Shown piece after piece: positions 39,112 to 55,617 of a DNA stretch of 64,000 bases. The DNA comes from Bryobacterales bacterium (GTDB taxonomy: Bacteria; Acidobacteriota; Terriglobia; Bryobacterales; UBA6623). Made by a program: the position numbers and the translations under genes. Under the pieces are notes generated by a model that had not been told where the DNA came from, searched no databases, and saw only the letters and a program-made list of their open reading frames with translations. Location of the stretch: positions 1 through 64,000 of the forward strand of contig JAPPMG010000002.1 in the NCBI GenBank assembly GCA_028819215.1, in the 5' to 3' direction. Positions within the stretch are counted from its first letter, which is position 1. The number at the start of each line of letters is the position of its first letter.

Positions 39112-40209
39112 TTACGACTCGGCAGCATGCTGGAGAGCTCTGAGATAGCCGATGGCAAAGGCCCAACCCATCTGCGATCCGATGGTGTCATCGGTGAATT
39201 CTGGTGTGTGGTCCGGAATCACCAGATACTGGTACCCGACTTCCCTAAAGGCCTTCATGCATGCGAGCATGTCGCAATCGCCGGCATCATGAGGCACTTC
39301 GAGGTACTTGTAATACGGCACCTCCACGCGGACGTTGCGGAAGTGTACGTGATTGATCCGGTCGCGCGACCCGAAGTAGCGAATCGCCTCGGCCGCGTCC
39401 TCGCCCATTTCGGTAGTGACACCGGTGTCCAGGGTGATCCCATTTGAAGGGCTGTCAACTAGCTGGATGAGTTCCCGCTGGTCCGCCAGCGAGCGCATCG
39501 GCTGCGCCACGCCTCGGAACACCGGAATCGGCGGATCGTTTGGATGCATCGCGAGTCGGACACCGGAGTCTTCAGCAACTGGGATGACTGCCCTCAAGAA
39601 CCCTTCCAAGCGCTCCCAAAGCTGCTCTCTGGAGTGGGTCCCGACGTTGTCCAGGGGGGGCAGGTCGCGGGTCCGCGCCTCGTCATAGTCGCGGAGTCCG
39701 ATCCCGCCAAGCCCGGTCGTTCGCCCGTAGCCCTCCGAGCCCCTGAGGGCGATGAAGTTGTATTCGATTACGGGAATCCGCAACTCTCCCGCGATCCGGA
39801 TGTTCGTCTTGACAGCTTCGATCTCGGCGGAGGCATCAGGCCGTCCTTGCACCACACGATGCACCCTGCCGAGATGGAGCATCATCGGAACGAGGCCCTT
39901 GTTCTCGATGCGGGACTTGATCCGCTTGAGCTCCTCTGCGTCCCACGGCCTCATGGGTGCAGGATTGCCAGGACCGCGGTCGGTTGCGGGCACGAGGCCA
40001 CGTCGGCGTTGCGTCAGCGAGTAGGTAGTCGGCATCACGACATGGCGTATGCCAAGCATCCGGAAGAAGTCGAGCGTTTCGTCCGAGAGATCTCGCAAGC
40101 CCTTGCCGATCTTGATCGGAGGGCCTTGGGCAGCCGCGGATCTAGCGACTGCCGCCGCCACGGCGAGAGCAGCGCCATCGCGAAGTAGTTCTCGGCGCCT
40201 TGCAGTCAT
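39112..40209 (-). CDS. Exported mannonate dehydratase-like TIM-barrel protein (Asp variant)
   Basis: A 365-residue barrel of the UxuA/xylose-isomerase-like group. A leader with consecutive arginines (TARRRELL) and an alanine-rich segment ending in AAAQ indicates export. Compared with E. coli UxuA, the segments AVIPVAEDSGVRLAMHPNDPP, NHVHFR, GDCDM and PDHTPEF are conserved, supplying metal-site histidines and an aspartate. The position of the UxuA metal-binding cysteine (NGFTMCTG) is occupied by aspartate (NGITLDTG). It is also shorter than UxuA. ATG 40209 overlaps the stop of the upstream paralogue as ATGA. The reaction is uncertain: dehydration of an aldonate, or an isomerisation. Confidence 0.82.
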   Translation of the reverse strand: MTARRRELLRDGAALAVAAAVARSAAAQGPPIKIGKGLRDLSDETLDFFRMLGIRHVVMPTTYSLTQRRRGLVPATDRGPGNPAPMRPWDAEELKRIKSRIENKGLVPMMLHLGRVHRVVQGRPDASAEIEAVKTNIRIAGELRIPVIEYNFIALRGSEGYGRTTGLGGIGLRDYDEARTRDLPPLDNVGTHSREQLWERLEGFLRAVIPVAEDSGVRLAMHPNDPPIPVFRGVAQPMRSLADQRELIQLVDSPSNGITLDTGVTTEMGEDAAEAIRYFGSRDRINHVHFRNVRVEVPYYKYLEVPHDAGDCDMLACMKAFREVGYQYLVIPDHTPEFTDDTIGSQMGWAFAIGYLRALQHAAES

Positions 40210-41291
40210 GCGTTCACCGCCTGCACCAATCCCCGGATGTACCCATGGGAGAACGAGCGGCCAATCTTGCGACCCGGCAGGTCACCCGGAATGCCGGGAC
40301 TGTGGTCGGAGACGATCGCCAGATCGTAGCCCACATCCTTGTACGCCCGCATGGCGTCGAGCATGTCGACGTCGCCCTCGTCAATGAAGGTTTCCTCGTA
40401 CAGGGGCACGCTGCCGCGCACGGCTCGGAAGTGGACATGGTGAATTCGCCCCCGTCCGCCGATTCGACGAATGGCGTCGATGACGTCCACGCCCATTTCG
40501 GTCACGGTTCCCTGACAGAAGGTAAATCCGTTGGAAGGGCTCGGCACCGCATCCAGAAACGCCTCGATCTCCTCCGTCGATGTCAGGATGCGGCTGACGC
40601 CTCGCATCGCCTTGACAGGGGGGTCCTTCGGATGCAGTGACATCTTGACGCCGGCTGCTTCGGCAGCATCCATCACGCCGTTGGTGAAGTAGATCATGCG
40701 CTCCCAGAGCTCTTCCCTGGAAATGCTGCCGATTTCTTCGAAGGGTGGGGCGTCGCGGACGCGGTTGAAGTCGAACGCCTTGTAGGTGGCGCCTCCGCGG
40801 CCCGGCTTGTCGTAGTAGCCGACTTCATCTCCCCAGCGGAAGTCCGGCGACCAGCGCCATTCGATGACGGTTACACCGCGGGCGCCAGCGGCTGCGAGGC
40901 TCGTGCGAATGTGCTCGATGTCCTGATCGCGATCCGGCCTTGCCAGCATCGAATTCATCAGCCAACTGAGCGGCAGCATGAGAGAGTGCAGCTTCAGACC
41001 ATAGCCAGCGCATTGCTCCTGGACGGCTGCGACGTCCTGCTCTGACCAGTGACCCTTGCCATCGCGATCGACCGAGTCCGTGCCTTGGAGAACGACCCAC
41101 TTCAAGCCCAGCTGGGCCATCCAGCGGAGCGTCGCATCGTCCAGCGAGCCGATGTTCTCCGACAGTCGTGGCGACCAGGCGCCTCCGCCCTCCGCGTTAC
41201 TCGGTGATTGCTGGCAAGCTCCTGCCAGCAAGCTTGCGACGGGCGGGCCCAGCAGGACACTGCGACGCGGCAAGCGATGGTCTGTTGTCAT
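40206..41291 (-). CDS. Exported mannonate dehydratase-like TIM-barrel protein (Cys variant)
   Basis: A 361-residue paralogue of the downstream gene. The leader LPRRSVLLGPPVASLLAGAC has a twin arginine and a cysteine that may be lipidated. UxuA-type segments are GVKMSLHPKDPP, NGFTFCQG (cysteine kept), HHVHFR, GDVDM and SDHSPG, so the full metal site of UxuA is present. Between the leader and the first barrel strand, UxuA-specific loops are missing. GGAGA at 41299-41303 before ATG 41291 fixes the start; the longer frame overlaps the cytochrome gene. Translational coupling to the second paralogue suggests that the two act together. Confidence 0.82.
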   Translation of the reverse strand: MTTDHRLPRRSVLLGPPVASLLAGACQQSPSNAEGGGAWSPRLSENIGSLDDATLRWMAQLGLKWVVLQGTDSVDRDGKGHWSEQDVAAVQEQCAGYGLKLHSLMLPLSWLMNSMLARPDRDQDIEHIRTSLAAAGARGVTVIEWRWSPDFRWGDEVGYYDKPGRGGATYKAFDFNRVRDAPPFEEIGSISREELWERMIYFTNGVMDAAEAAGVKMSLHPKDPPVKAMRGVSRILTSTEEIEAFLDAVPSPSNGFTFCQGTVTEMGVDVIDAIRRIGGRGRIHHVHFRAVRGSVPLYEETFIDEGDVDMLDAMRAYKDVGYDLAIVSDHSPGIPGDLPGRKIGRSFSHGYIRGLVQAVNA

Positions 41292-41442
41292 AGCGAGATC
41301 TCCAAGGAAACACGGATTGACTCCGTCCGCGCCGGCGCGTCGATCGCTGGCCACGGCGTCGCGCATCCACTCACTTCCACCTCCGGGGAGGATTGCTTCG
41401 GCACATGTTGTTCGAGTCGCCGAGCGCAAACCATCATTGCAG

Positions 41443-43044
41443 TTATGGTAAATCGGCGTCGCGCACGGCTTGCCGGGCCTGCAGAACTCTCGGTCGTTTC
41501 TCGAGGAACTTCCGCCACGTCGCCGTCGCTTTCGAATTCTGGCCAAGATCGTCGTGCACCCTCGCCAGCATTCGGTAGCTGGACTCAAGCGTCGGCTCCC
41601 GCAGGATGGCTTCTTGAAGCGCAGCTTCAGCTTGATTCGCATCTCCCAATGCCCACCACGCCGCCGCCAGCGAATTGAATTGAAGTGCTCCGACCGGTCC
41701 GGCGGCGATAGCCCCGCGCAGCTTTCGCAGGCCTGAGCGCGGAGATCCGGCCAGCACCATGGCCGTTCCGAAGGCGTCCAACGCGGCAGGATCGTTCTTG
41801 AATGATCCAGAGACGGATCTCAACTGCCCGAGGCCTCGCTGTAGCAGTTCTTGGGAGCCACGCTGCTGGCCGTAGAGGATGTTCGCAATTCCCAAGTTTC
41901 GGAGTCGAAGGTTTCGAGGGCTCGGCCTCCATGGGCGAAGCTCGTCGGGCGGGTCGGGATCCACTGCGGGCAACGGGTGAAGACTGATTCGATGATCTGT
42001 GAACGCGCTGTGCCCGCTGTCGTGCGATTGGCGTCGCGGCATGTGGCAGGAAATGCAGTCTCCGCTATGAGTCTCATGATCCTGGGGCAACCCTTCTCCG
42101 TGGCATTGAACACACCGCGCGCTGAAGTAAGCCTTCGGCTCAGTCGGGTTTTCGTGGGGATTGTGGCACGTGCCACACCAAAGTGCATCGCCGGACTCCA
42201 CGGCGCAGCGACTCAGGCTCAACTGCTCGACATGGCTGACAACCTGAAACCGATCCTGCCCGCCTTCGGTCCGCGGCACCCCCACGAAGACGGTCCAGAA
42301 GTCCTCGAGCACTGCTCCCGGCTGGAATGATCCGAAAGTGCGGCCGGGATGCAGGATGCGGATGGTCCCGCCCAAGTGGCATTGCTCGCAGACACTGTCC
42401 CTCTGGCGCGGCGAAGCGCCGGCCGGATTGAATATCGTCGCCTTGCTGGGGTCGGCCAGATGCGGCTCGAGGGACCCGTGGCAGCGATCACAGGAAATCG
42501 CCTCTTCAGGGAGGGCCGGGTCTCCATAGCGGTTCACCGTGTTGGGCGTATGCGCGGGTCTTCCCGCATGGCACCACAAGCATTCGGACGTTGCTGGGCG
42601 GTTGAAGTCTGGGTTCGCCTCCCGCTCCATGCCGGGCGCCATCCCCCATTGACCCCGCTCGGTGTAGTACGCGATCGGGGATTGAAACAAGGCATCGCCA
42701 ACACGGACCAAGTACCCAAATGCTGCGTTGCCTGATCCGATCACGTAGTCGATCGCGTACTCTGCACTGAGCCCGCCCCTTTCGATCTCCTGAACGAGGC
42801 CCGCATCCGACGTACTCGTGCGAAAAGTCGTGCCGGAGAAACCGTGTCCGTACGAGCCAAGCGGATGGTCGTTGGCCAGCTTTGAGATCGAGCGGCCCAT
42901 CCCGCTAAGGCGGTACTCGTCAACCTCCTTTGGGTGGCACGTCGCGCATTCTTGCCATGCAGGCGCAGCCGACGCGCTCATCGCTGCGAACGCCAGCGTG
43001 ACGACGATGGCGGCACTCGTTCCGGCTTTGGCGAACTCTCGCAT
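41443..43044 (-). CDS. Seven-haem cytochrome c with C-terminal TPR region
   Basis: A 533-residue periplasmic or outer-membrane-facing protein. A signal peptide (AAIVVTLAFAAMSASA) is followed by seven CxxCH motifs at 33, 155, 185, 219, 290, 311 and 330 (first cysteine of each). Distal histidines such as HDSGHSAFTDH could be axial ligands. Residues from about 380 to the end are helical repeats of TPR type (ALQEAILREPTLESSYRMLARVH). Such haem/TPR proteins occur in Acidobacteriota and Planctomycetes and are assumed to carry electrons; the donor and acceptor are unknown. ATG 43044 is used. The gene is upstream of the exported dehydratase-like pair on the same strand with a 151-base gap. Confidence 0.88.
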   Translation of the reverse strand: MREFAKAGTSAAIVVTLAFAAMSASAAPAWQECATCHPKEVDEYRLSGMGRSISKLANDHPLGSYGHGFSGTTFRTSTSDAGLVQEIERGGLSAEYAIDYVIGSGNAAFGYLVRVGDALFQSPIAYYTERGQWGMAPGMEREANPDFNRPATSECLWCHAGRPAHTPNTVNRYGDPALPEEAISCDRCHGSLEPHLADPSKATIFNPAGASPRQRDSVCEQCHLGGTIRILHPGRTFGSFQPGAVLEDFWTVFVGVPRTEGGQDRFQVVSHVEQLSLSRCAVESGDALWCGTCHNPHENPTEPKAYFSARCVQCHGEGLPQDHETHSGDCISCHMPRRQSHDSGHSAFTDHRISLHPLPAVDPDPPDELRPWRPSPRNLRLRNLGIANILYGQQRGSQELLQRGLGQLRSVSGSFKNDPAALDAFGTAMVLAGSPRSGLRKLRGAIAAGPVGALQFNSLAAAWWALGDANQAEAALQEAILREPTLESSYRMLARVHDDLGQNSKATATWRKFLEKRPRVLQARQAVRDADLP

Positions 43045-46087: not shown

Positions 46088-46598
46088 CTTGGTGATTACC
46101 CTCTGTGTCGGATCGCGTTCCCAGACGCCCTGCGGAGACTCGACACGCCCGCGCGGCATGCGCACAGGAACGGTGTTATTGGACTGGTCGGAGGTTGGGC
46201 CCGGAGCTTCGCGGCCGAAGACCCTCTCGCCCGCGAGCGTAGGAAGCGAAGCCTTGATCTTAGCAAATCTGGCGGCAATTCTGGCTGCGGTTGGCTCGTT
46301 CGTGGAGCCGATCGATCCGAGCTAGAAGATTGGCAGCACGACTTGCCCTGCCGCTAACAAGGTCCGCGAAGGCGATCGATCTTGCGCTTGGAATCCTCTG
46401 AAAAGCGATGGTGGCGTGAGTCACCCGGCCGAACCGCGGGACCGTCTGCCCCGCATCCTATATCGATTCGATGTTACTGCGCTGGTGGAGAGGACCTTGC
46501 TATTAGTTCCGGCAGGATTCGGATCGGGCGCCTTCTCGCGGCACGACCCTTCAGTCGCCGTGTGATTCGGAGGACGGTCCTCCCACGCGTGGTGGCGA
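46088..46598. other. Intergenic region upstream of ppdK
   Basis: I see no gene in these 511 bases; the open frames are shadows. A 15-base perfect inverted repeat (GGAGGAC/GTCCTCC, one central base) at 46569-46583 follows the methyltransferase stop by 16 bases and may end that operon, though without a T-tract. The ppdK promoter must lie near the left end. Confidence 0.4.
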
Positions 46599-47114
46599 TC
46601 AGCTTGCTTGATCGTAGAACTTCGCGAGTGCCTTGTTCTCAACAACAAGTCTCTTGCGAAGCAACAGCAGGTTCAACCCGGACCCGACCACCGCTAGAGC
46701 CCACGCTCCGAACATCAGCGGCACGACAGCGATTTCACCACAGACGATGAGATAGTTGGGGTGATCGACGAAGCGGTACGGGCCGCTACGAATGCGCGTG
46801 GCGCCAGGAAGCACCATGACGCGGGTCGTCCATCGCGTCCCCAAGGTCGCAATCACCCAAATTCGCCCGCATTGCAACAGGCCGAAGACTACGAGCCACG
46901 GAATCGAAACCAAGGCCCGCGGGTCAATCGTGACAAGAAGCGCCAGCAACCAGCCAGCGTGCAAGGTAACGAGCGCCTTGTAATGCCGCTCGCCGACCTC
47001 GATCGCACCCCGAGCCACCAACACCCGGCGGTTACGGCGCGCCAAGACAAGTTCTGCCACCCGCTGGACCACAAGGAAGCCGACGACCGCGTAGAGCGGG
47101 CTGATGAGATTCAC
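46599..47114 (-). CDS. Isoprenylcysteine carboxyl methyltransferase-like membrane protein, polyketide-associated
   Basis: A 171-residue integral membrane protein with about four to five hydrophobic helices. The C-terminal signature GPYRFVDHPNYLIVCGE is the SAM-binding motif of ICMT/phospholipid-methyltransferase-type enzymes. It begins at a GTG (47114) inside the stop of the type III polyketide synthase gene (GTGA overlap). In Bacillus subtilis the equivalent pair is bpsA-bpsB, where the membrane methyltransferase O-methylates alkylpyrones made by the synthase. The same role is inferred here. Confidence 0.85.
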   Translation of the reverse strand: MNLISPLYAVVGFLVVQRVAELVLARRNRRVLVARGAIEVGERHYKALVTLHAGWLLALLVTIDPRALVSIPWLVVFGLLQCGRIWVIATLGTRWTTRVMVLPGATRIRSGPYRFVDHPNYLIVCGEIAVVPLMFGAWALAVVGSGLNLLLLRKRLVVENKALAKFYDQAS

Positions 47115-48166
47115 GTTGACTGCAGGACCAGAAACGCAGCCGAAAAACCGGGGCCCAGGCTGGTCAGCAAATGGCGTCTCGGCACTCTGTGCTCGAGGGC
47201 ACGCTTGAGAACGAACAAGACGGTTGCGGCGGACATGTTGCCGTAGTCACGAAGGACGGCTCGAGACTCTTCAAGACCGCCGGGCTGAAGGTTGAACGCA
47301 GACTCTAGGGCATCCAGCACCTTGGCACCACCGGGATGGCAAATGAAGCTGTCTATATCGTGGAGACCGAGGCCCTCGGAGGCCAGAAACTCCTCGGTCA
47401 CACATCGCATCCGCGTGCGGACCAGCTCGGGAATGCTCCGAGAGAACACCACTGCCAGCCCGTCGTCCACAACGTCCCATCCCATGATGTCGAGCGAGTC
47501 TGGCCAAGTGTATTCGCCCCACGCCGAGATCTCCGGTCCCGGACCATGGTCCGCTAGCACGGCCGCGGCGGCACCGTCGCGGAAGAGGGCCGTCGCCACA
47601 AGGTTTCGAACGGATCGATCGCGGGATCGGAACGTGAGGGTGCAGAGTTCGACAACGAGCAACAGGACGCGGCTGCCCGGTCGGGCCCGCACGCAAGCGG
47701 CGGCACGAGCCAGTCCCAGCACGCCGCCGCCGCATCCCAGCCCGAAGATCGGCAATCTTTGCACGTCGCGGCGGAACGGCAGCTCGTTCATCAGTCTGGC
47801 ATCTAGGCTGGGCGTGGCGATTCCGGTGGTCGAAACGGTCACGATCAGGTCGATGTCTCGCGGTTCCAGACCGCTGGCGGCCAAGCATTCGACGGCGGCC
47901 TCCTTCAGCAGTGAAATCGCATTCTCGAGGTACAGGCGGTTCTTTTCCTCGAAGCCATGTTCGCCTCCTTCGTACCAACTCCGAGGGGCGCAGACATATC
48001 CTGCCCCGATGGCGGCATTGCTGAAGATGCCCAAGAGACTCCCAAGACCCGAGACGGCACCGGCAAAGAACGAGGAGCTGAAGTTCTTTACCTCGTCTTG
48101 GGTCATCCGGTGGCCCGGCACCGCCGTGGCAATCGACCTGATTCTAGGATTGGGTTGAGCGTCCAT
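47111..48166 (-). CDS. Type III polyketide synthase (chalcone/stilbene synthase family)
   Basis: A 351-residue homodimeric ketosynthase-like enzyme. The catalytic triad is Cys145 in FGLGCGGG, His277 in FICHPGG and Asn310 in DYGNMSAA. The spacing is standard and the C-terminal GFGPG-like element is present as SLGPGFSAA. Such enzymes extend acyl-CoA starters with malonyl-CoA without an acyl carrier protein, and bacterial members paired with an ICMT-like gene make alkylpyrones or alkylresorcinols. ATG 48166 has GGGAAAG upstream. It is the first gene of a two-gene operon. No acyl-CoA ligase or tailoring oxygenase is adjacent, so a fatty acyl-CoA starter from general metabolism is likely. Confidence 0.94.
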   Translation of the reverse strand: MDAQPNPRIRSIATAVPGHRMTQDEVKNFSSSFFAGAVSGLGSLLGIFSNAAIGAGYVCAPRSWYEGGEHGFEEKNRLYLENAISLLKEAAVECLAASGLEPRDIDLIVTVSTTGIATPSLDARLMNELPFRRDVQRLPIFGLGCGGGVLGLARAAACVRARPGSRVLLLVVELCTLTFRSRDRSVRNLVATALFRDGAAAAVLADHGPGPEISAWGEYTWPDSLDIMGWDVVDDGLAVVFSRSIPELVRTRMRCVTEEFLASEGLGLHDIDSFICHPGGAKVLDALESAFNLQPGGLEESRAVLRDYGNMSAATVLFVLKRALEHRVPRRHLLTSLGPGFSAAFLVLQST

Positions 48167-48790
48167 GGATCTTTCCCACCATCGAAGACGCTAGCTCCAT
48201 GGCGACTGCAATCCGAACGGGGCGAGGCCCATAGGGACGCGGGTGGTTCATGCTGATTGAATCACACTCTTCCAGAATCGAGCGCCTTGATTCGGCGCGG
48301 CACGACCGCGATCCATCCGACTGCGCCATCGATCGCCCGGACAACGAGAAACGAGTGGCCAGGCAGAGAGCTCCGAGCAAATTCTAGGTATCCCCTCGCC
48401 CTAGCCCGGTGATTCAAGCGTTTCAGTCGCGCAAAGCTTCACAGTAGGCAGCCGCTAACGGTTCAGACCGCATAGTCCGCCGAGCTGATCGGCAGTACCA
48501 AGAGCTGCTCCCCACCGGTTTCCTGGAGCGTCACAGCCCCGGTCGTTGGGCCGGCTCCGGCGGTGCTCAGAGTTGAATGCCTCGTGTAGCGGGCCGAGGC
48601 TCCTCTACGAGCCGGACGGCACGATGTTGAGGCAGCGGCCGATCTTCAAGCCGCACCAGTCGCCGAGGATGGGCACGTCTCGCAGCGGAAAGAGAGTGGC
48701 AAGCGCGTTCAGGTGGAGAGGCCTTGGGTCCGCTTAGGCAGCTCCGTAGGAATCGCAAGGGCGCTTCCTCTGGACTAGACTGATCCGAGG
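48167..48790. other. Intergenic region with possible decayed coding sequence
   Basis: No intact gene is seen. On the minus strand between about 48463 and 48733, two short stretches in different frames read like real protein: an upstream one with LRDVPILGDWCGLKIG and high G/C third positions, closed by a stop, and a terminal one with TLQETGGEQLLVLPISS ending at 48463. They may be one frame-shifted gene remnant of unknown family. The rest should hold the divergent promoters of the polyketide synthase and DUF3179 genes. Confidence 0.3.
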
Positions 48791-50239
48791 ATGCTCCGGG
48801 TGATTCGATTCGCGTTGCTCCTCGCCGGACTGTCGCTCTTCGGTTGCGTCTCCGAGCTCGGCGCCCAATTCCCTGCCCAGGGGCCCAGACTGCCCGGTGA
48901 TACCTCGGGCAATGCCCCACTTCGCCGCAGCCTTCCCCGGCCAGGAGACAACATCGCCGCGACCGTGCGCACCGCGTTGTTCTCACGCAACTGGGCAGAC
49001 CGTGACCGAGCGCTGCGCTTCTTGGTCAAACGCAACAAGAAGGACGTCATTCCGGCTCTCATCACGGTGCTACGCGTTCTGCCCGACTCTGACGGCCGGC
49101 TGCTCGACGCGCTCCAACGACTCGCCGGAGTCAAGATACCGCGCGACTGGACGGCGTGGATGGAGTGGCTGGAGGCGCGCACCGAGATCCGCCCCTACCG
49201 GGAGTTCGTTTCCTTCAAGGCAGACCTCCTGGCCGGGATCGACATCAATTTCCGTGGCTTCCTCTACCCAGGGTTGAGGCACGAGATCCGCCTCGAGGAG
49301 ATCGTCTGGGGAGGGGTCAAGAAGGATGGGATCCCCGCGCTGGTGAACGCCAAGCAGATCCCTGCCGGTGAGGCGACCTACCTCACCGACCGGGAACTGG
49401 TCTTCGGGGTCAGCATCAACGGCGACTCGCGCGCCTATCCGCTCCGCATCCTCGACTGGCACGAGATGCTTAACGACGTGGTAGGCGGCGTCCCGGTGTC
49501 CCTCGCCTACTGCACGCTCTGCGGGTCGGGCATCCTCTTCGACACCCGGGTCCACGGCCGGCGGAAGCCTTTCGTCTTCGGCTCTTCCGGCCTCCTCTAT
49601 CGGTCGAACAAGCTCATGTACGACACACAGACGAAGTCGCTCTGGAATCAGTTCACCGGGCGGCCCGTGGTGGGGAAACTGACCAGCTCCGGCATCGAAC
49701 TCAAGATCTTGCCGGTGGTGATCACGAGCTGGCAGGACTGGCTCGCCGCCCATCCGGACACCACGGCACTATCCCACGACACCGGCTTCGATCGAGACTA
49801 CCGGCCCGGACGAGCGTACGGAGAATATTTTGCAAGCCCCGATCTTATGTTTCCGGTGCTGGTCCGAGATCGTCGGCTCGCGCCGAAGGACCGTATCTTC
49901 GTTCTGCGGGACGGAGCCAACGAAATGGCCTGGGCCCTCTCGCTCTTCAGAGGTGGCGCCGTCATCCACGACAGAGTGGGGCCGCGTGATGTGGTCCTCA
50001 TCGGAAATGCCCAAACGGAAACGGTCCGCGCCTACGAATCGGGAGGCAAGAAGTTTGTCGCGACTGAGGAGGATCGGTCCCGGGTGACGAGCGACGGGGC
50101 GCAATGGACCGTCACCGAGGCCGAACTCGCTGGCCCGGGCGGCGAGAGCCTCGCCCGGCTCCCCGGGCATATCGCATACTGGTTCGCTTGGCAGAGCTAC
50201 AAGGCCGGAAAGCCGTCACGCACGGCTGCCCGCAAATGA
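48791..50239 (+). CDS. DUF3179 domain-containing exported protein
   Basis: A 482-residue protein. A hydrophobic leader with a cysteine (LAGLSLFGC) suggests a lipoprotein, then about 90 residues contain a helical repeat-like segment. The main part is DUF3179, recognised by FGVSINGDSRAYPLRILDWHE, the YCTLCGSG cysteine motif, SSGLLYRSNKLMYD and the LWNQFTG segment. The biochemical role of the family is unknown; the paired cysteines suggest redox or metal chemistry. ATG 48791 is directly preceded by CCGAGG. It is monocistronic and convergent with the large cytochrome-type gene across a 626-base gap. Confidence 0.9.
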   Translation: MLRVIRFALLLAGLSLFGCVSELGAQFPAQGPRLPGDTSGNAPLRRSLPRPGDNIAATVRTALFSRNWADRDRALRFLVKRNKKDVIPALITVLRVLPDSDGRLLDALQRLAGVKIPRDWTAWMEWLEARTEIRPYREFVSFKADLLAGIDINFRGFLYPGLRHEIRLEEIVWGGVKKDGIPALVNAKQIPAGEATYLTDRELVFGVSINGDSRAYPLRILDWHEMLNDVVGGVPVSLAYCTLCGSGILFDTRVHGRRKPFVFGSSGLLYRSNKLMYDTQTKSLWNQFTGRPVVGKLTSSGIELKILPVVITSWQDWLAAHPDTTALSHDTGFDRDYRPGRAYGEYFASPDLMFPVLVRDRRLAPKDRIFVLRDGANEMAWALSLFRGGAVIHDRVGPRDVVLIGNAQTETVRAYESGGKKFVATEEDRSRVTSDGAQWTVTEAELAGPGGESLARLPGHIAYWFAWQSYKAGKPSRTAARK

Positions 50240-50865: not shown

Positions 50866-53800
50866 TCATCGAAGCGATTGGGACTGCACGAAACTGAGCA
50901 GGTCAGCCATCTCGGCCGGTCCGATCTCGTCCTCGAGTCCCTCTGGCATCAGCGAAAGGCCCATGGAGGTCAGCGTGTTGATGTCTGATCGCGAGACCAC
51001 ATCCTCAATGCCTTCGCCGCGACGCAAGGTAACGCTTTGAGGCGTTTCGCGCGCCAGGATTCCCGTGACGACGCTGCCATCCACAGTGTCAAGCCTGTAG
51101 TTGACGAAGTTCGACTGCAAAGACCGGTTCGGATCGAGGATGTCAACGAGGAGTTCCGCTCGTTGAGAGGAAGCCCTCTCGGTCAGATCCGGACCCACCT
51201 CGTGGCCCTTGCCCCCGAGTCGATGGCAGGTTGCGCACTCTCGCTCGAAGACCGTCTCACCACGAGTCGCATCCCCTTCCGCCACGAGGGCGGAGCGATA
51301 CTCCCGGATTACCTCCTCCGGGCTGGCCACTTCGGCGCGGGCGAGAATCTGTCGCGCCCGCGCGCGAATCTCTTCCCGGGGATGATCCATCAATACCGCC
51401 CTTCGCGCCGGGTCCAGATGGGCCACCTCCACGGTGCCTTTTTCCAACGCGTCAAGGTAGGGCCGCAGCCGCTCAGTGCGGCTGAACAGCACCTCGACAG
51501 CCTCGCGGCGCACGGCGGGACTGTAGGTCCTCCAGCCGAGAACAAGGATCTGCCCCACCTCCGGCCCGCCGTGGGCGGAGAGCGAGCGCACGGCCGCCAG
51601 CTGGATCTCGGCCGGCTCGTCCGGGGACAGCAGCGCATTGAGGGCGCCGAGGGCCGCTTCCGGCGGAGCCCAGGAGAGCAGACGGATCGCCTCAGTCCGC
51701 TCCGGCAGATTCCCGCTGTCCTTGTCTACGGCGATAGCCGGAGCCTCCGCCAGCACCTCGGCAATCGCAGCTCCGAGCTCTGGATTCTCGCCGCTGTCTC
51801 GCATTGCGGGCAGCGAACTCCCCGTCCGCGCCAATCCAGACGCGATACCGGCGGCAGCCGCCATGCGGATCCACTTCCCGTAGGCGCCGGTTGGCTTGTT
51901 CGTGGCGGTCAACACGGCCTGCGTGGCGTCCGGCGACTCCCTGACCGCCACGTTGTCCGCCAATTGCCTGACGGCAGCCGGGCTAGCCGGGTTTGCCAGG
52001 AACGAATCTTCTCGGAGCAGGAGGTCCAAGAGTGCCAGGGAATTCTCCCGAGCCCCTGAGAGGACGGCTGCACGGATCCACTCGTCCCCTGGATTGGCCC
52101 TCAGGATTCGCGCCAGGTGCACTGTTCCATCGCCACGCTGCATTCCTGGAACGGCAAGAGCAACCCGAAAGCGAACCGCAGGATCCTCGTCCGCGGCCAG
52201 TGACGCGACTCTTTCGGACAACGCGGACGAGCCCAGGAGCCGTGTCTCGGAAAGGCGGACTGCATTCTGGCGAACGGCCGGGTGGGGATCCGCGAGCGCG
52301 CGCAGGAGGGCCCCATCGTCGAGCTGGCCGAGCCCCTCGAGCGACCACAATGCATGGAGCCGGCCCCGGGCGGACTGTGACCGCCTAAGCGAGGCCCTGA
52401 GCGCTGCACTTGCCTCGACTGATTGCCGCTCGAACAGCAACCTGTGGGCGGTCGACCTCCACCAGCCATCTTCATGGTCGAGAAGGGCTACGAGCTCGGA
52501 GATCGACGCTTCACCAAGCTGCGGCAACGCTCCCCGCTCAAGGCTGGTTGGGGCAATGCGGTAGATGCGACCCATGTCCTGACCGGTGTAGTAGTCGATG
52601 TGCTCAAGGATTTCGTCAGGGATTGCGCTCGGGTCCTCGATGACCTCTCGGTACATGTCCACCACGTAAAGGCAGCCATCGGGGCCGTTGGCGAAGTTCA
52701 CCGGGCGGAACCAGGTGTCGGTCGACGCCAAGAATTCCCTGCCGGCCGTCGCGCGACGGGCACGGAAGGTAACGCCCGCCCTCTCCACGGTCATCCGCAG
52801 CACCAGGTTACCTGCCGGCTCCGGAGTGAATGCGTTGCCGTGGAATTCGGCAGGATACGCCGCGCCTCGGTAGATTCCCAGCCCGGCCCCACCCGTGTAG
52901 TGGCCTTGCAAGGCGAGTTCCCGTGGCGGGAACCGCTGCGCCCTCATTTCGTGGGTGGTATCCACCCAGCGGCTCCAGTACGTCTTGCGGGCGGCCCGCC
53001 AAGGTTCGGCGTCGCTAATCGGGAACACCAGCCGGTCGGACTCAAGGATCGGAGTCGCAAGTCGCGCCGGCTCCATGCCCTCGACAACGTGTCGAAGCGG
53101 GAACACCGCGTGAATCACCGGACTGCCGGAGTTCGAGCCGAATCGGTTGCCCCAATCGTCGAAGGCGTTGCCGAAGTCACCCCGCGTGCCCTCGGTGGCC
53201 TCGATCACTTCGGTGACCGGATGGAAGCGGAAGTCCTCGGAACCCAGAGGAAGCTCGCGGTCCCCGGCGCGCTCGGCGTGCCGCACCGTGCCGCCATTGT
53301 ACGAGGTGGTGCCGTAGATCCAGTGATCCATCCCCCACTTGAGGTTGTTCACGATGTCTTCAGACTTGTCAGTGCCGAAGCCCGTGAAGACGGTCCGGCG
53401 GATGTCCGCGACGCCATCGCCCGTGGTGTCCTTCAGGTACACAATGTCCGGCGCCGCGCTGACGAAGATCCCCCCGTTGAAGCACGCGATTCCGCTCGGC
53501 CAGTGCAGGCGGTCAGCAAACACCCTGGCGCTCTCGAAGACGCCATCTCCGTCTGCATCATCTAGGAGCCGGATCCGTCCTGCGGGCTCTCCACCCGGTG
53601 GCGGATCGAACGGGTAGCCCCGCATCTCGGCTACGTACAGCCTGCCGTTCTCGTCGAAGGTCATCGCGATCGGGTCTGTCACGTTCGGTTCCGAAGCCGC
53701 GACCTCCAGACGAAAGCCCTCCGCGAGCTGGAACGCCTGCAGCGCCTCAGGCGGGGATAGCGGTTCGTGGCGTTCGAGGCCATCTGCGATCGGTGACCTG

Positions 53801-53895
53801 CTTCCGCACGAAACAGAAGACAGGACAGCGGCCAGTAGGCCGCCCCACAGTACCGACCGCCGGCTGGCGGCGCGAAGGTATCCGTCCATGCCCAT
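50866..53895 (-). CDS. Large exported PQQ-propeller/HEAT/cytochrome c protein (membrane-bound dehydrogenase type)
   Basis: A 1009-residue protein with three parts. After a leader with twin arginines and a cysteine (SRRSVLWGG, then SVSC) comes a propeller of the putative membrane-bound dehydrogenase family (DENGRLYVAEMRGYP, LHWPSGIACFNGGIFV), about residues 45-420. A HEAT-like helical-repeat region follows, about 480-850. The C-terminal haem-binding domain has a single CATCH motif near residue 886 and the RSLQSNFVNYRL segment. This architecture is well known from Planctomycetes and Verrucomicrobia and also occurs in Acidobacteriota; sugar or alcohol oxidation is assumed, not shown. GGAGACC upstream favours ATG 53895. 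It lies within the block bounded by transposase remnants. Confidence 0.88.
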   Translation of the reverse strand: MGMDGYLRAASRRSVLWGGLLAAVLSSVSCGSRSPIADGLERHEPLSPPEALQAFQLAEGFRLEVAASEPNVTDPIAMTFDENGRLYVAEMRGYPFDPPPGGEPAGRIRLLDDADGDGVFESARVFADRLHWPSGIACFNGGIFVSAAPDIVYLKDTTGDGVADIRRTVFTGFGTDKSEDIVNNLKWGMDHWIYGTTSYNGGTVRHAERAGDRELPLGSEDFRFHPVTEVIEATEGTRGDFGNAFDDWGNRFGSNSGSPVIHAVFPLRHVVEGMEPARLATPILESDRLVFPISDAEPWRAARKTYWSRWVDTTHEMRAQRFPPRELALQGHYTGGAGLGIYRGAAYPAEFHGNAFTPEPAGNLVLRMTVERAGVTFRARRATAGREFLASTDTWFRPVNFANGPDGCLYVVDMYREVIEDPSAIPDEILEHIDYYTGQDMGRIYRIAPTSLERGALPQLGEASISELVALLDHEDGWWRSTAHRLLFERQSVEASAALRASLRRSQSARGRLHALWSLEGLGQLDDGALLRALADPHPAVRQNAVRLSETRLLGSSALSERVASLAADEDPAVRFRVALAVPGMQRGDGTVHLARILRANPGDEWIRAAVLSGARENSLALLDLLLREDSFLANPASPAAVRQLADNVAVRESPDATQAVLTATNKPTGAYGKWIRMAAAAGIASGLARTGSSLPAMRDSGENPELGAAIAEVLAEAPAIAVDKDSGNLPERTEAIRLLSWAPPEAALGALNALLSPDEPAEIQLAAVRSLSAHGGPEVGQILVLGWRTYSPAVRREAVEVLFSRTERLRPYLDALEKGTVEVAHLDPARRAVLMDHPREEIRARARQILARAEVASPEEVIREYRSALVAEGDATRGETVFERECATCHRLGGKGHEVGPDLTERASSQRAELLVDILDPNRSLQSNFVNYRLDTVDGSVVTGILARETPQSVTLRRGEGIEDVVSRSDINTLTSMGLSLMPEGLEDEIGPAEMADLLSFVQSQSLR

Positions 53896-54684
53896 CGGGG
53901 TCTCCAGGTTGGCGCCGGTCATGGCGTTGGGCCCGAGCCTTCCATGTTCCAAAGTCCAGAATCCCGCGCGTCCATCCAGACCCCTGCGATGTCACTTGCG
54001 TGGGCCGACGGCAATCCGCGGCAGACGTGCGGGATGATCAGCCGACCCCAACAACCAAGTCGTTGGGCGCAATCGGGGGCTGTTTGTGTGTCTTCCACCG
54101 GTTCAAGATGCGAGCGGGCCGGAGCGCCTTGGAGCCTCGATGGTGCCAGCGCTATTCTCGCCCTTCGCTGCTGTCAACTCGCAGCCTCCGCCCAGCGACA
54201 TTGCGACTGACCGACGCATTCCGGTCGTCGTCTTGAATTCCAGCGCTTCGGACTCGCCAGCAGAGGTCAGTGCAACGATTTGTTCAGACGTCATCGAGTC
54301 AATTCCAAGCTTCGATTCCCTCCATTATCCGATTGGCTGAGCGCGCCAGACCATTTCACTCATTCGGGTACTCAATCGAGCACCGACCTGCCCGCCGATC
54401 TTGCTGAACGGCCTGATTTCAAAGTGAAGTTGGATCTTGATCACCTGATCGCCGTAGGCACTGCGGCCTTGGGAAAGCCTCGCGTTCTTGACATTAGACT
54501 TCTCTCGCAAGCTGTTTCGAAGCGGACTACCGAATACCACGAATCGTCCCGGCAGGCCCCAGCCTCGGCGATGAACTGTCCTGCGAGCGGAGCAAGTACT
54601 TCGTCCCACCCGTCACGGCGTGGACATCCGACCAAACCCGACGCTGAGGCTCTCGATGGCGCGGGCGCTACCCTGTGAACTGAT
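53896..54684. other. 789-base decayed region without intact gene
   Basis: It contains the AlbA_2-type stub at 54103-54294. To its right, 54325-54640 on the minus strand holds short overlapping frames. One has an FGS-plus-basic segment and another has RSAYGDQV...GGQV, vaguely like MazF or a minimal nucleotidyltransferase; neither is convincing. Composition looks more A/T-rich than in the neighbouring genes. The promoter of the haem protein should be at the left end and that of the TIM-barrel gene at the right end. Confidence 0.4.
54103..54294 (-). pseudogene. N-terminal stub of an AlbA_2/Schlafen-type DNA-binding domain protein
   Basis: A 63-residue frame starts MTSEQIVALTSAGESEALEFK and continues TTTG. 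This is the characteristic N-terminus of AlbA_2 (COG2865-type) proteins, in which ESxxLEFK is followed by a helix and a nucleotide-binding-like fold. After about 27 residues the similarity stops abruptly and the rest is unrelated. No continuation was found in the other two frames. Full proteins are 200-500 residues, so this is a truncated relic, probably of a mobile or defence-associated gene. Confidence 0.5.
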
Positions 54685-55617
54685 ATGCAACTTGGATTCG
54701 TAAGCGCGATCCTGCCGGAGCTCTCGTTCGATGAGGTTTGCCGGATCGGCGCAGCCGAGGGTTATGACTGCATCGAAGTGATGTGCTGGCCGCCAGGCAA
54801 GGCGGAGCGCCGCTATGCCGGCGTAACCCACATCGACACCGCGACGCTAGACGACGCTGGTGTCGACCACATCCATGCAACGCTTGATAGCCGCGGCATC
54901 CGGATCAGCGGCCTCGGATACTACCCCAACCCGCTCGCGCCGGACAACGAAGAGTCACAAGTCGCGCAAGAGCACATCCGCTCTGTCATCCGAGCCGCCC
55001 GCGCGCTCGGCCTGTCGACCGTCAACACCTTCGTCGGCCGGGACTGGACTCAGTCCGTAGACGAAAACTGGCCGCGATTCCTCGATGTCTGGCGTCCGCT
55101 GATCGCATACGCCGAGGAATACGAAGTTCGCGTCGGAATCGAGAACTGCCCGATGATTTTTACCCGCGATGAATGGCCGGGGGGCAAGAATCTTGCCTGC
55201 TCGCCGGCCATCTGGCGGCGCATGTTCGAGGACATCCCCAGCGCCTCGTTCGGACTCAACTACGATCCTTCGCATCCGACTTGGATGCAGATGGACGCCA
55301 TCGCCCCATTGCGCGACTTCAGCGATCGCATCTTCCACGTTCACGCCAAGGACGTGCGCGTGGACCAGGAGCTGCTCGACGACGTCGGCATCCTGGCGTA
55401 TCCTCTCCAGTTCCACACGCCCAAACTCCCCGGGCTGGGCGACGTCGACTGGGGTCGGTTCTTCTCCGTCCTGACTTCGACTGGCTACGACGGCCCGGTT
55501 TGCGTGGAGGTGGAGGATCGCGCTTACGAGGGCTCCTTGGCAGACCGCAAGCTGTCACTGCGACAGAGCGCTGGCTTCCTGCGGCAGTACATCCCGAGAC
55601 GCAGCGGGCTATCTTGA
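54685..55617 (+). CDS. Sugar phosphate isomerase/epimerase family TIM-barrel protein
   Basis: A 310-residue cytoplasmic barrel of the AP-endonuclease-2/xylose-isomerase-like superfamily. Metal-site residues are seen in VGIENCPM (glutamate), [10 protein letters not shown] (aspartate and histidine), FHVHAKD (histidine) and VCVEVEDR (terminal glutamate). Unlike the four other barrels of this group in the window it has no leader. ATG 54685 has no obvious ribosome-binding site. The substrate is unknown; related enzymes epimerise or isomerise ketoses and inosose. It converges on the large propeller/PHP gene. Confidence 0.88.

Follow-up and report, generated by a model that had tools for sequence, protein, structure and literature searches.

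The window, a 64,000-nucleotide stretch of DNA from a Bryobacterales bacterium, carries two overlapping genes on its reverse strand: one (47111..48166, (−), ATG start) for a type III polyketide synthase (PKS) of 351 aa and, directly after it, one (46599..47114, (−), GTG start) for an ICMT-type integral membrane methyltransferase of 171 aa, both assigned by Pfam, predicted fold and structure match. The TGA stop of the synthase and the GTG start of the methyltransferase share the four bases GTGA (47111..47114, (−); coding strand AACGTGAATC). A possible ribosome-binding stretch, GGTGGGAAAGATCC, picked out by eye alone, lies ahead of the synthase start (48167..48180, (−)), and a scan of 46300-48800 for promoter-like sites found none. 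The pair is flanked by genes for pyruvate phosphate dikinase and for a DUF3179 protein, which are not polyketide genes; a single synthase match, at E 0.001, turned up in the window's genome. The original prediction, made from these letters alone, had given the reading frames, their strand, coordinates and overlap just as we find them; it had also remarked that no other biosynthetic gene adjoins the pair and had likened the layout to Bacillus bpsA-bpsB—a type III PKS immediately followed by an ICMT—and both observations hold.

By its Cys-His-Asn triad, its Chal_sti_synt domains and its fold, the first gene product belongs to the type III PKS family. It scores 74.8 bits against Chal_sti_synt_N and 64.5 bits against Chal_sti_synt_C (cut-off 27), and it also passes a related Pfam domain, ACP_syn_III_C (40.5 vs a cut-off of 26.6 bits), while scoring under the cut-offs of the NCBIfam KASIII models. 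Identity with DpgA (NF042429) was considered and rejected, at 153.6 bits vs the 425-bit NCBI equivalog cut-off. The predicted fold is confident (mean pLDDT 96.6) and best matches Mycobacterium tuberculosis PKS11 (4jao, 4jat; TM 0.93–0.94, identity 34–36%; for 4jat, TM 0.94 and 34%). The catalytic residues are where the original prediction had placed them: Cys145 (in FGLGCGGG; codon 47732..47734, (−)), His277 (in CHPGG; 47336..47338, (−)) and Asn310 (in YGNMS; 47237..47239, (−)), each present in 144 of 144 aligned rows, a count that, like the row counts below, leaves out an unverified BpsA sequence. Trp230 (in MGWD; 47477..47479, (−)) aligns with Trp230 of PKS11.

The second gene product scores 90.5 bits against Pfam ICMT (PF04140; cut-off 24), carries the HPxY motif of that family and has an ICMT fold, predicted with confidence (mean pLDDT 95.8). 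The signature that had been reported for it, GPYRFVDHPNYL, is present at residues 111–122 (46749..46784, (−)), and W86, W95, G111, H118, P119, N120, Y121, A141, R155 and E159 are kept in 98 of 98 ICMT sequences, duplicates included. VIA-align superposes the model on Ma-ICMT (4a2n) with Z 15.1, rmsd 3.5 and 167 residues aligned, and on a eukaryotic ICMT (5v7p) with Z 12.2, on a scale where helical models may score about 13–14 without kinship; Foldseek gives E 0.06 and probability 1.00 for 4a2n. Because helical models reach high Z by chance, the Pfam score and a profile match to 4a2n (E 2.1e-6) are counted toward the assignment as well. Sequence and model together make this an ICMT-type integral membrane methyltransferase, predicted to carry out SAM-dependent transfer. 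BpsB of Bacillus is likewise ICMT-type.

Both genes are under purifying selection: when G000 is compared with each of G009, G010 and G004, all of the window's genus, dN/dS is 0.09–0.10 for the synthase and 0.25–0.29 for the methyltransferase. Between G000 and G009 or G010 the methyltransferases are 84–85% identical (dS 0.28–0.29) and the synthases 97–98% (dS 0.12); the greater divergence of the methyltransferase, silent sites included, hints at recombination inside the operon.

In type, the pair is ordinary; what sets it apart is that the synthase is altered next to its active site in this lineage alone. In all 13 rows of the group to which the window belongs, position 56 (codon 47999..48001, (−)) is Gly and position 196 (47579..47581, (−)) is Arg, the latter in LFRDG between the gatekeeper Phe195 and Asp197. 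The other 131 rows have Arg at position 56 (130 rows, the remaining one being gapped), and at position 196 they have Gly (104), Ala (22) or Ser (5), never Arg. Arg56 is retained in the closest rows outside the group (L008, which has Ser196, and L009, which has Gly196), and two KASIII proteins of relatives (L028, L030) show, by eye, Arg and LFGDG in the matching motifs. In CHS numbering, which was set by motif and is supported by L214, D217 and R68-H69, the window and 12 other rows thus have Gly in place of Arg68, an arginine that we infer to be a defining mark of the type III PKS family, and Arg in place of Gly216. By these alignments a normally fixed arginine has been relocated, in this lineage, to what would be a position beside the active site. 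The original prediction, right about the triad, had not remarked on this.

CHS Gly216 is reported as a pocket residue in apple MdCHS2 (PMC5713876), and its counterpart in MMAR_2474, Gly189, as one of the cavity residues (PMC5916927; the numbering of MMAR_2474 is taken to equal that of PKS11, since Trp230 and Tyr59 agree). In MMAR_2474, Gly-to-Ala at 189 figures among seven modelled changes whose joint effect was to shrink the cavity until it approached that of MMAR_2470, an enzyme that makes triketides only (PMC5916927). Arg196, to judge from its position, may likewise shrink the synthase pocket. For CHS Arg68, no statement of a functional role turned up in the literature searched. The purifying selection seen in three genome pairs argues that the changed enzyme works.

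Among the 11 genomes sampled from the window's genus (G000–G010), the pair is intact in eight (G000, G002, G004, G006, G007, G008, G009 and G010), so that it is indeed kept in relatives, as the original prediction required. At the end of a contig, G006 has a second synthase copy, 97% identical. In G003 and G005 a synthase remnant, its first 39–48 codons only, persists at the native site; the G003 remnant lies at L051:8363-8479, and in G005 (L050:8099-8242) a sulfatase gene (PF00884; 6529-7998) stands between the remnant and the pyruvate phosphate dikinase gene. G001 lacks, at the native site, the stretch that corresponds to window positions 46289-48395, and has a 55%-identical synthase elsewhere, with no neighboring ICMT. 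Gene-by-gene comparison of 11 loci of the window's group reveals about five neighborhoods: the DUF3179 site (window, G009, G010, G004), a site common to G002 and G007, and those of G006, of G008 and of f23, a family of the same phylum but of another class. The synthase and the methyltransferase (listed for 10 of the 11 loci and found by tblastn in the eleventh, L044) are the only genes common to all of them, which bears out the suggestion that the two form a minimal unit. In G009 and G010 (L197, L198) about 12 kb, including an ORF that by eye resembles a hydantoinase, separate the dikinase gene from the pair; in the window the two adjoin (46166-46598).

Farther afield, an ICMT lies within 130 bases downstream of the synthase in 78 of 80 named loci; these loci are the best 80 of 588 relatives in genome_contigs, among at least 592 pattern matches, and the figure therefore describes near relatives rather than type III PKSs at large. 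They span at least seven phyla, and 57 are alphaproteobacterial by NCBI rank; four come from the window's own genus, and one (L060) shares an identical synthase with G356. Another 29 acidobacterial rows (L138–L166) divide into 13 with an ICMT and 16 in which none was detected, two of the latter near a contig end. The pairing occurs outside the window's clade, too, in PKS11-like rows (L161–L164, L170) and beside L012. This last pair (L012:1501-2535, in G058) belongs to another family of the order; its synthase has one in-frame TGA and a Phe at the Trp230 position, and its place in the tree is toward THNS. The synthase–ICMT pair is, in short, a known kind of unit that occurs in several bacterial phyla.

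Two trees were built, one of 144 rows, leaving out L137, L057, L058, L059 and L061 as copies of genomes already included, and one of 52 rows hand-picked from the 144. The clade of 13 rows that holds the window (support 100/99) comprises eight rows from seven genomes of the genus, four f23 genomes, and a record titled Candidatus Aminicenantes COS4_bin_49, the synthase of which is identical to that of the f23 genome G356. Bin names such as RHO and COS may point to a sponge habitat. Adding G008 and G001 makes a clade of 15 rows (95/85), and this lies within one of 40 (100/100) in which 19 of the other 25 rows are alphaproteobacterial by title—a composition that does no more than suggest a donor, because the rows were chosen from near matches. 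Two pairs from Bacillota, L102 and L123, are not in this clade of 40 but do belong to a larger one of 47 rows. Of the checks that the original prediction had proposed, conserved synteny in Bryobacterales holds in part: the pair is common in the genus, but synthases of the window's own family (G012, G016) fall outside the 40-row clade and have no ICMT, and the operon is shared with a family of another class, f23.

Vertical inheritance was tried as an explanation and rejected, both for the window's lineage with its own family (a single clade of ten genus rows and the two f1 rows, AU p 2.4e-6) and for the f23 copies when grouped with three rows from the class of f23 (AU p 2.9e-74), in constraint tests whose groups were picked after the first tree had been seen. 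A tree that keeps the eight core genus rows in one group apart from f23 is not rejected (p 0.137), whereas one that keeps all ten apart from it is (p 0.014); the ten include G008 and G001, whose synthases look like separate acquisitions. Pyruvate phosphate dikinase serves as a yardstick: between f23 and the window it is 51% identical and the synthase 75–78%, while between G001 and the window the pattern is reversed, at 95% and 55%. The f23 comparison rests on pairwise identities rather than on a tree, the dikinase tree having been made from 14 of 19 sequences after a motif filter dropped five, four of f23 among them. By the rejections and this contrast in identities, the operon moved horizontally between lineages; the window's lineage appears to have gained it from outside, and between the genus and f23 the transfer may have run either way. 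As for vehicles, a search of viral_contigs with six peptide patterns gave no relative, no close plasmid DNA was found, and plasmid homologues (184 records) are all less than 60% identical.

Known systems offer several points of comparison. Bacillus bpsA-bpsB has the same two-gene layout, type III PKS and then methyltransferase (PMC5686519), in a different phylum; the R56G/G196R change belongs to the window's synthase. The latter is 38% identical to an unverified BpsA sequence, the nearest rows to which are L102 (Bacillota) and those of the acidobacterial f31. PKS11 resembles the window's synthase in fold and in Trp230 but belongs to a different clade, where it is joined by the f3 synthases of the window's order. 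Two alphaproteobacterial type III PKSs are described as using a range of acyl-CoA starters (PMC6274091): Rhizobium etli RePKS makes tri- and tetraketide pyrones from C4–C18 acyl-CoA, and the products of Rhodospirillum centenum RpsA are alkyldimethylpyrones and/or alkyldimethylresorcylic acids. On R. etli p42d a type III PKS gene (L167) groups with the window in its large clade; it has no detected ICMT next to it, unlike other Rhizobium loci (L124, L127, L131, L132), which do have one. The srs, hierridin and polyketide-quinone operons also combine a type III PKS with a methyltransferase and, as a rule, an oxidoreductase (PMC8086630, PMC10896814); the window's operon, between its dikinase and DUF3179 neighbors, is without one. 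The plasmid examples L172 and L174 differ again, with a class I methyltransferase beside an FAD enzyme where the window has an ICMT.

The operon, being of the bps type, probably turns fatty acyl-CoA into O-methylated alkylpyrones and/or alkylresorcinols with long chains. The synthase would load a long-chain fatty acyl starter onto Cys145, lengthen it in two or three rounds that draw on malonyl-CoA (or methylmalonyl-CoA), and close the chain into a ring, giving an alkyl alpha-pyrone, an alkylresorcinol or both. Its ICMT-type partner, placed in the membrane where such a lipid would lie, would O-methylate a ring hydroxyl with S-adenosylmethionine, and since no oxidase is encoded beside the pair, the product would probably stay a methyl ether and not become a quinone. 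The sequences themselves show the two genes with their predicted folds and catalytic residues, the pairing, the transfer and the purifying selection; starter, ring type, methylation and role are things that we infer. The operon is an accessory trait that moved horizontally, and its product is perhaps a membrane lipid or a signal. Feeding by fatty acyl-CoA, as originally proposed, is plausible, the closest solved structure being that of PKS11.

An O-methylated alkylresorcinol (or resorcylic acid) as main product, with Trp230 as the steric wall that forces aldol cyclization, is a credible if tentative alternative. The counterpart of this Trp is reported to be needed for resorcinol formation in ArsB, where it is Trp281, and to be conserved in alkylresorcinol synthases (PMC5916927, PMC6274091); ArsB W281G loses alkylresorcinol and gains pyrones, and ArsC G284W shifts the opposite way (PMC6274091). 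FtpA, SrsA, PKS10 and PKS11 are reported to share the Trp (PMC5916927), and the planctomycete Stieleria maiorica has a two-gene methyltransferase–PKS operon, free of oxidoreductase, whose PKS made pentadecyl- and heptadecylresorcinol (PMC10896814). But the Trp occurs in 138 of the 144 rows, so that it indicates a capacity rather than a choice and is insufficient to define an alkylresorcinol synthase; PKS11 has it, and the visible part of the PKS11 PDB title mentions methyl-branched alkylpyrones. Overexpressed bpsA-bpsB, moreover, is reported to yield mainly triketide pyrones, with alkylresorcinols as minor products, and C15 alkylpyrones are made by wild-type B. subtilis (PMC5686519); the resorcinol-type plasmid operons, L172 and L174, have class I methyltransferases and an FAD enzyme rather than an ICMT. 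A pyrone is thus a possible product, though the presence of Trp230, tied as it is to resorcinol formation, speaks against taking it for granted.

Other readings depart further from the bps model. The R56G/G196R change might alter which starter the enzyme takes (to a carboxylated or a short one, for example) or how long a chain it builds, or might confine it to triketide pyrones. The near-fixity of Arg56 elsewhere, the confinement of Arg196 to 13 rows, and the pocket position of its counterparts in MdCHS2 (PMC5713876) and MMAR_2474 (PMC5916927) all lean that way, yet the two changes may simply offset each other structurally, and we consider such a shift rather doubtful. Bolder still is the idea of an acidobacterial bps branch, horizontally shared, in which loss of CHS R68 and gain of Arg at CHS G216 would have rewired the starter or cyclization pocket, for a lipid polyketide that other bps enzymes do not make; as a whole this seems unlikely. 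That the ICMT-like protein acts instead on some unrelated lipid or on proteins, and is merely co-transcribed with the synthase, is very improbable: the family is named for prenylcysteine methylation, but the two genes stay joined in about five neighborhoods and in 78 of the 80 best named loci.

The pair provides an example, from an acidobacterial lineage known here from genomes only, of a two-gene synthase–ICMT unit that travels as a module between distant bacteria. If its product is a methylated lipid, phenolic or pyrone lipids would extend to this lineage. The natural replacement of a conserved arginine also offers a two-residue handle on what governs the starter and the mode of cyclization in type III PKSs. 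Elsewhere in the window, the next gene past that for the DUF3179 protein encodes a PVC-type CxxCH heme-binding protein with HEAT repeats (50866-53952; TIGR02604, TIGR02603), two adjacent UxuA-like TIM-barrel proteins are encoded at 39112-41642, and a third TIM barrel at 54685-55617.
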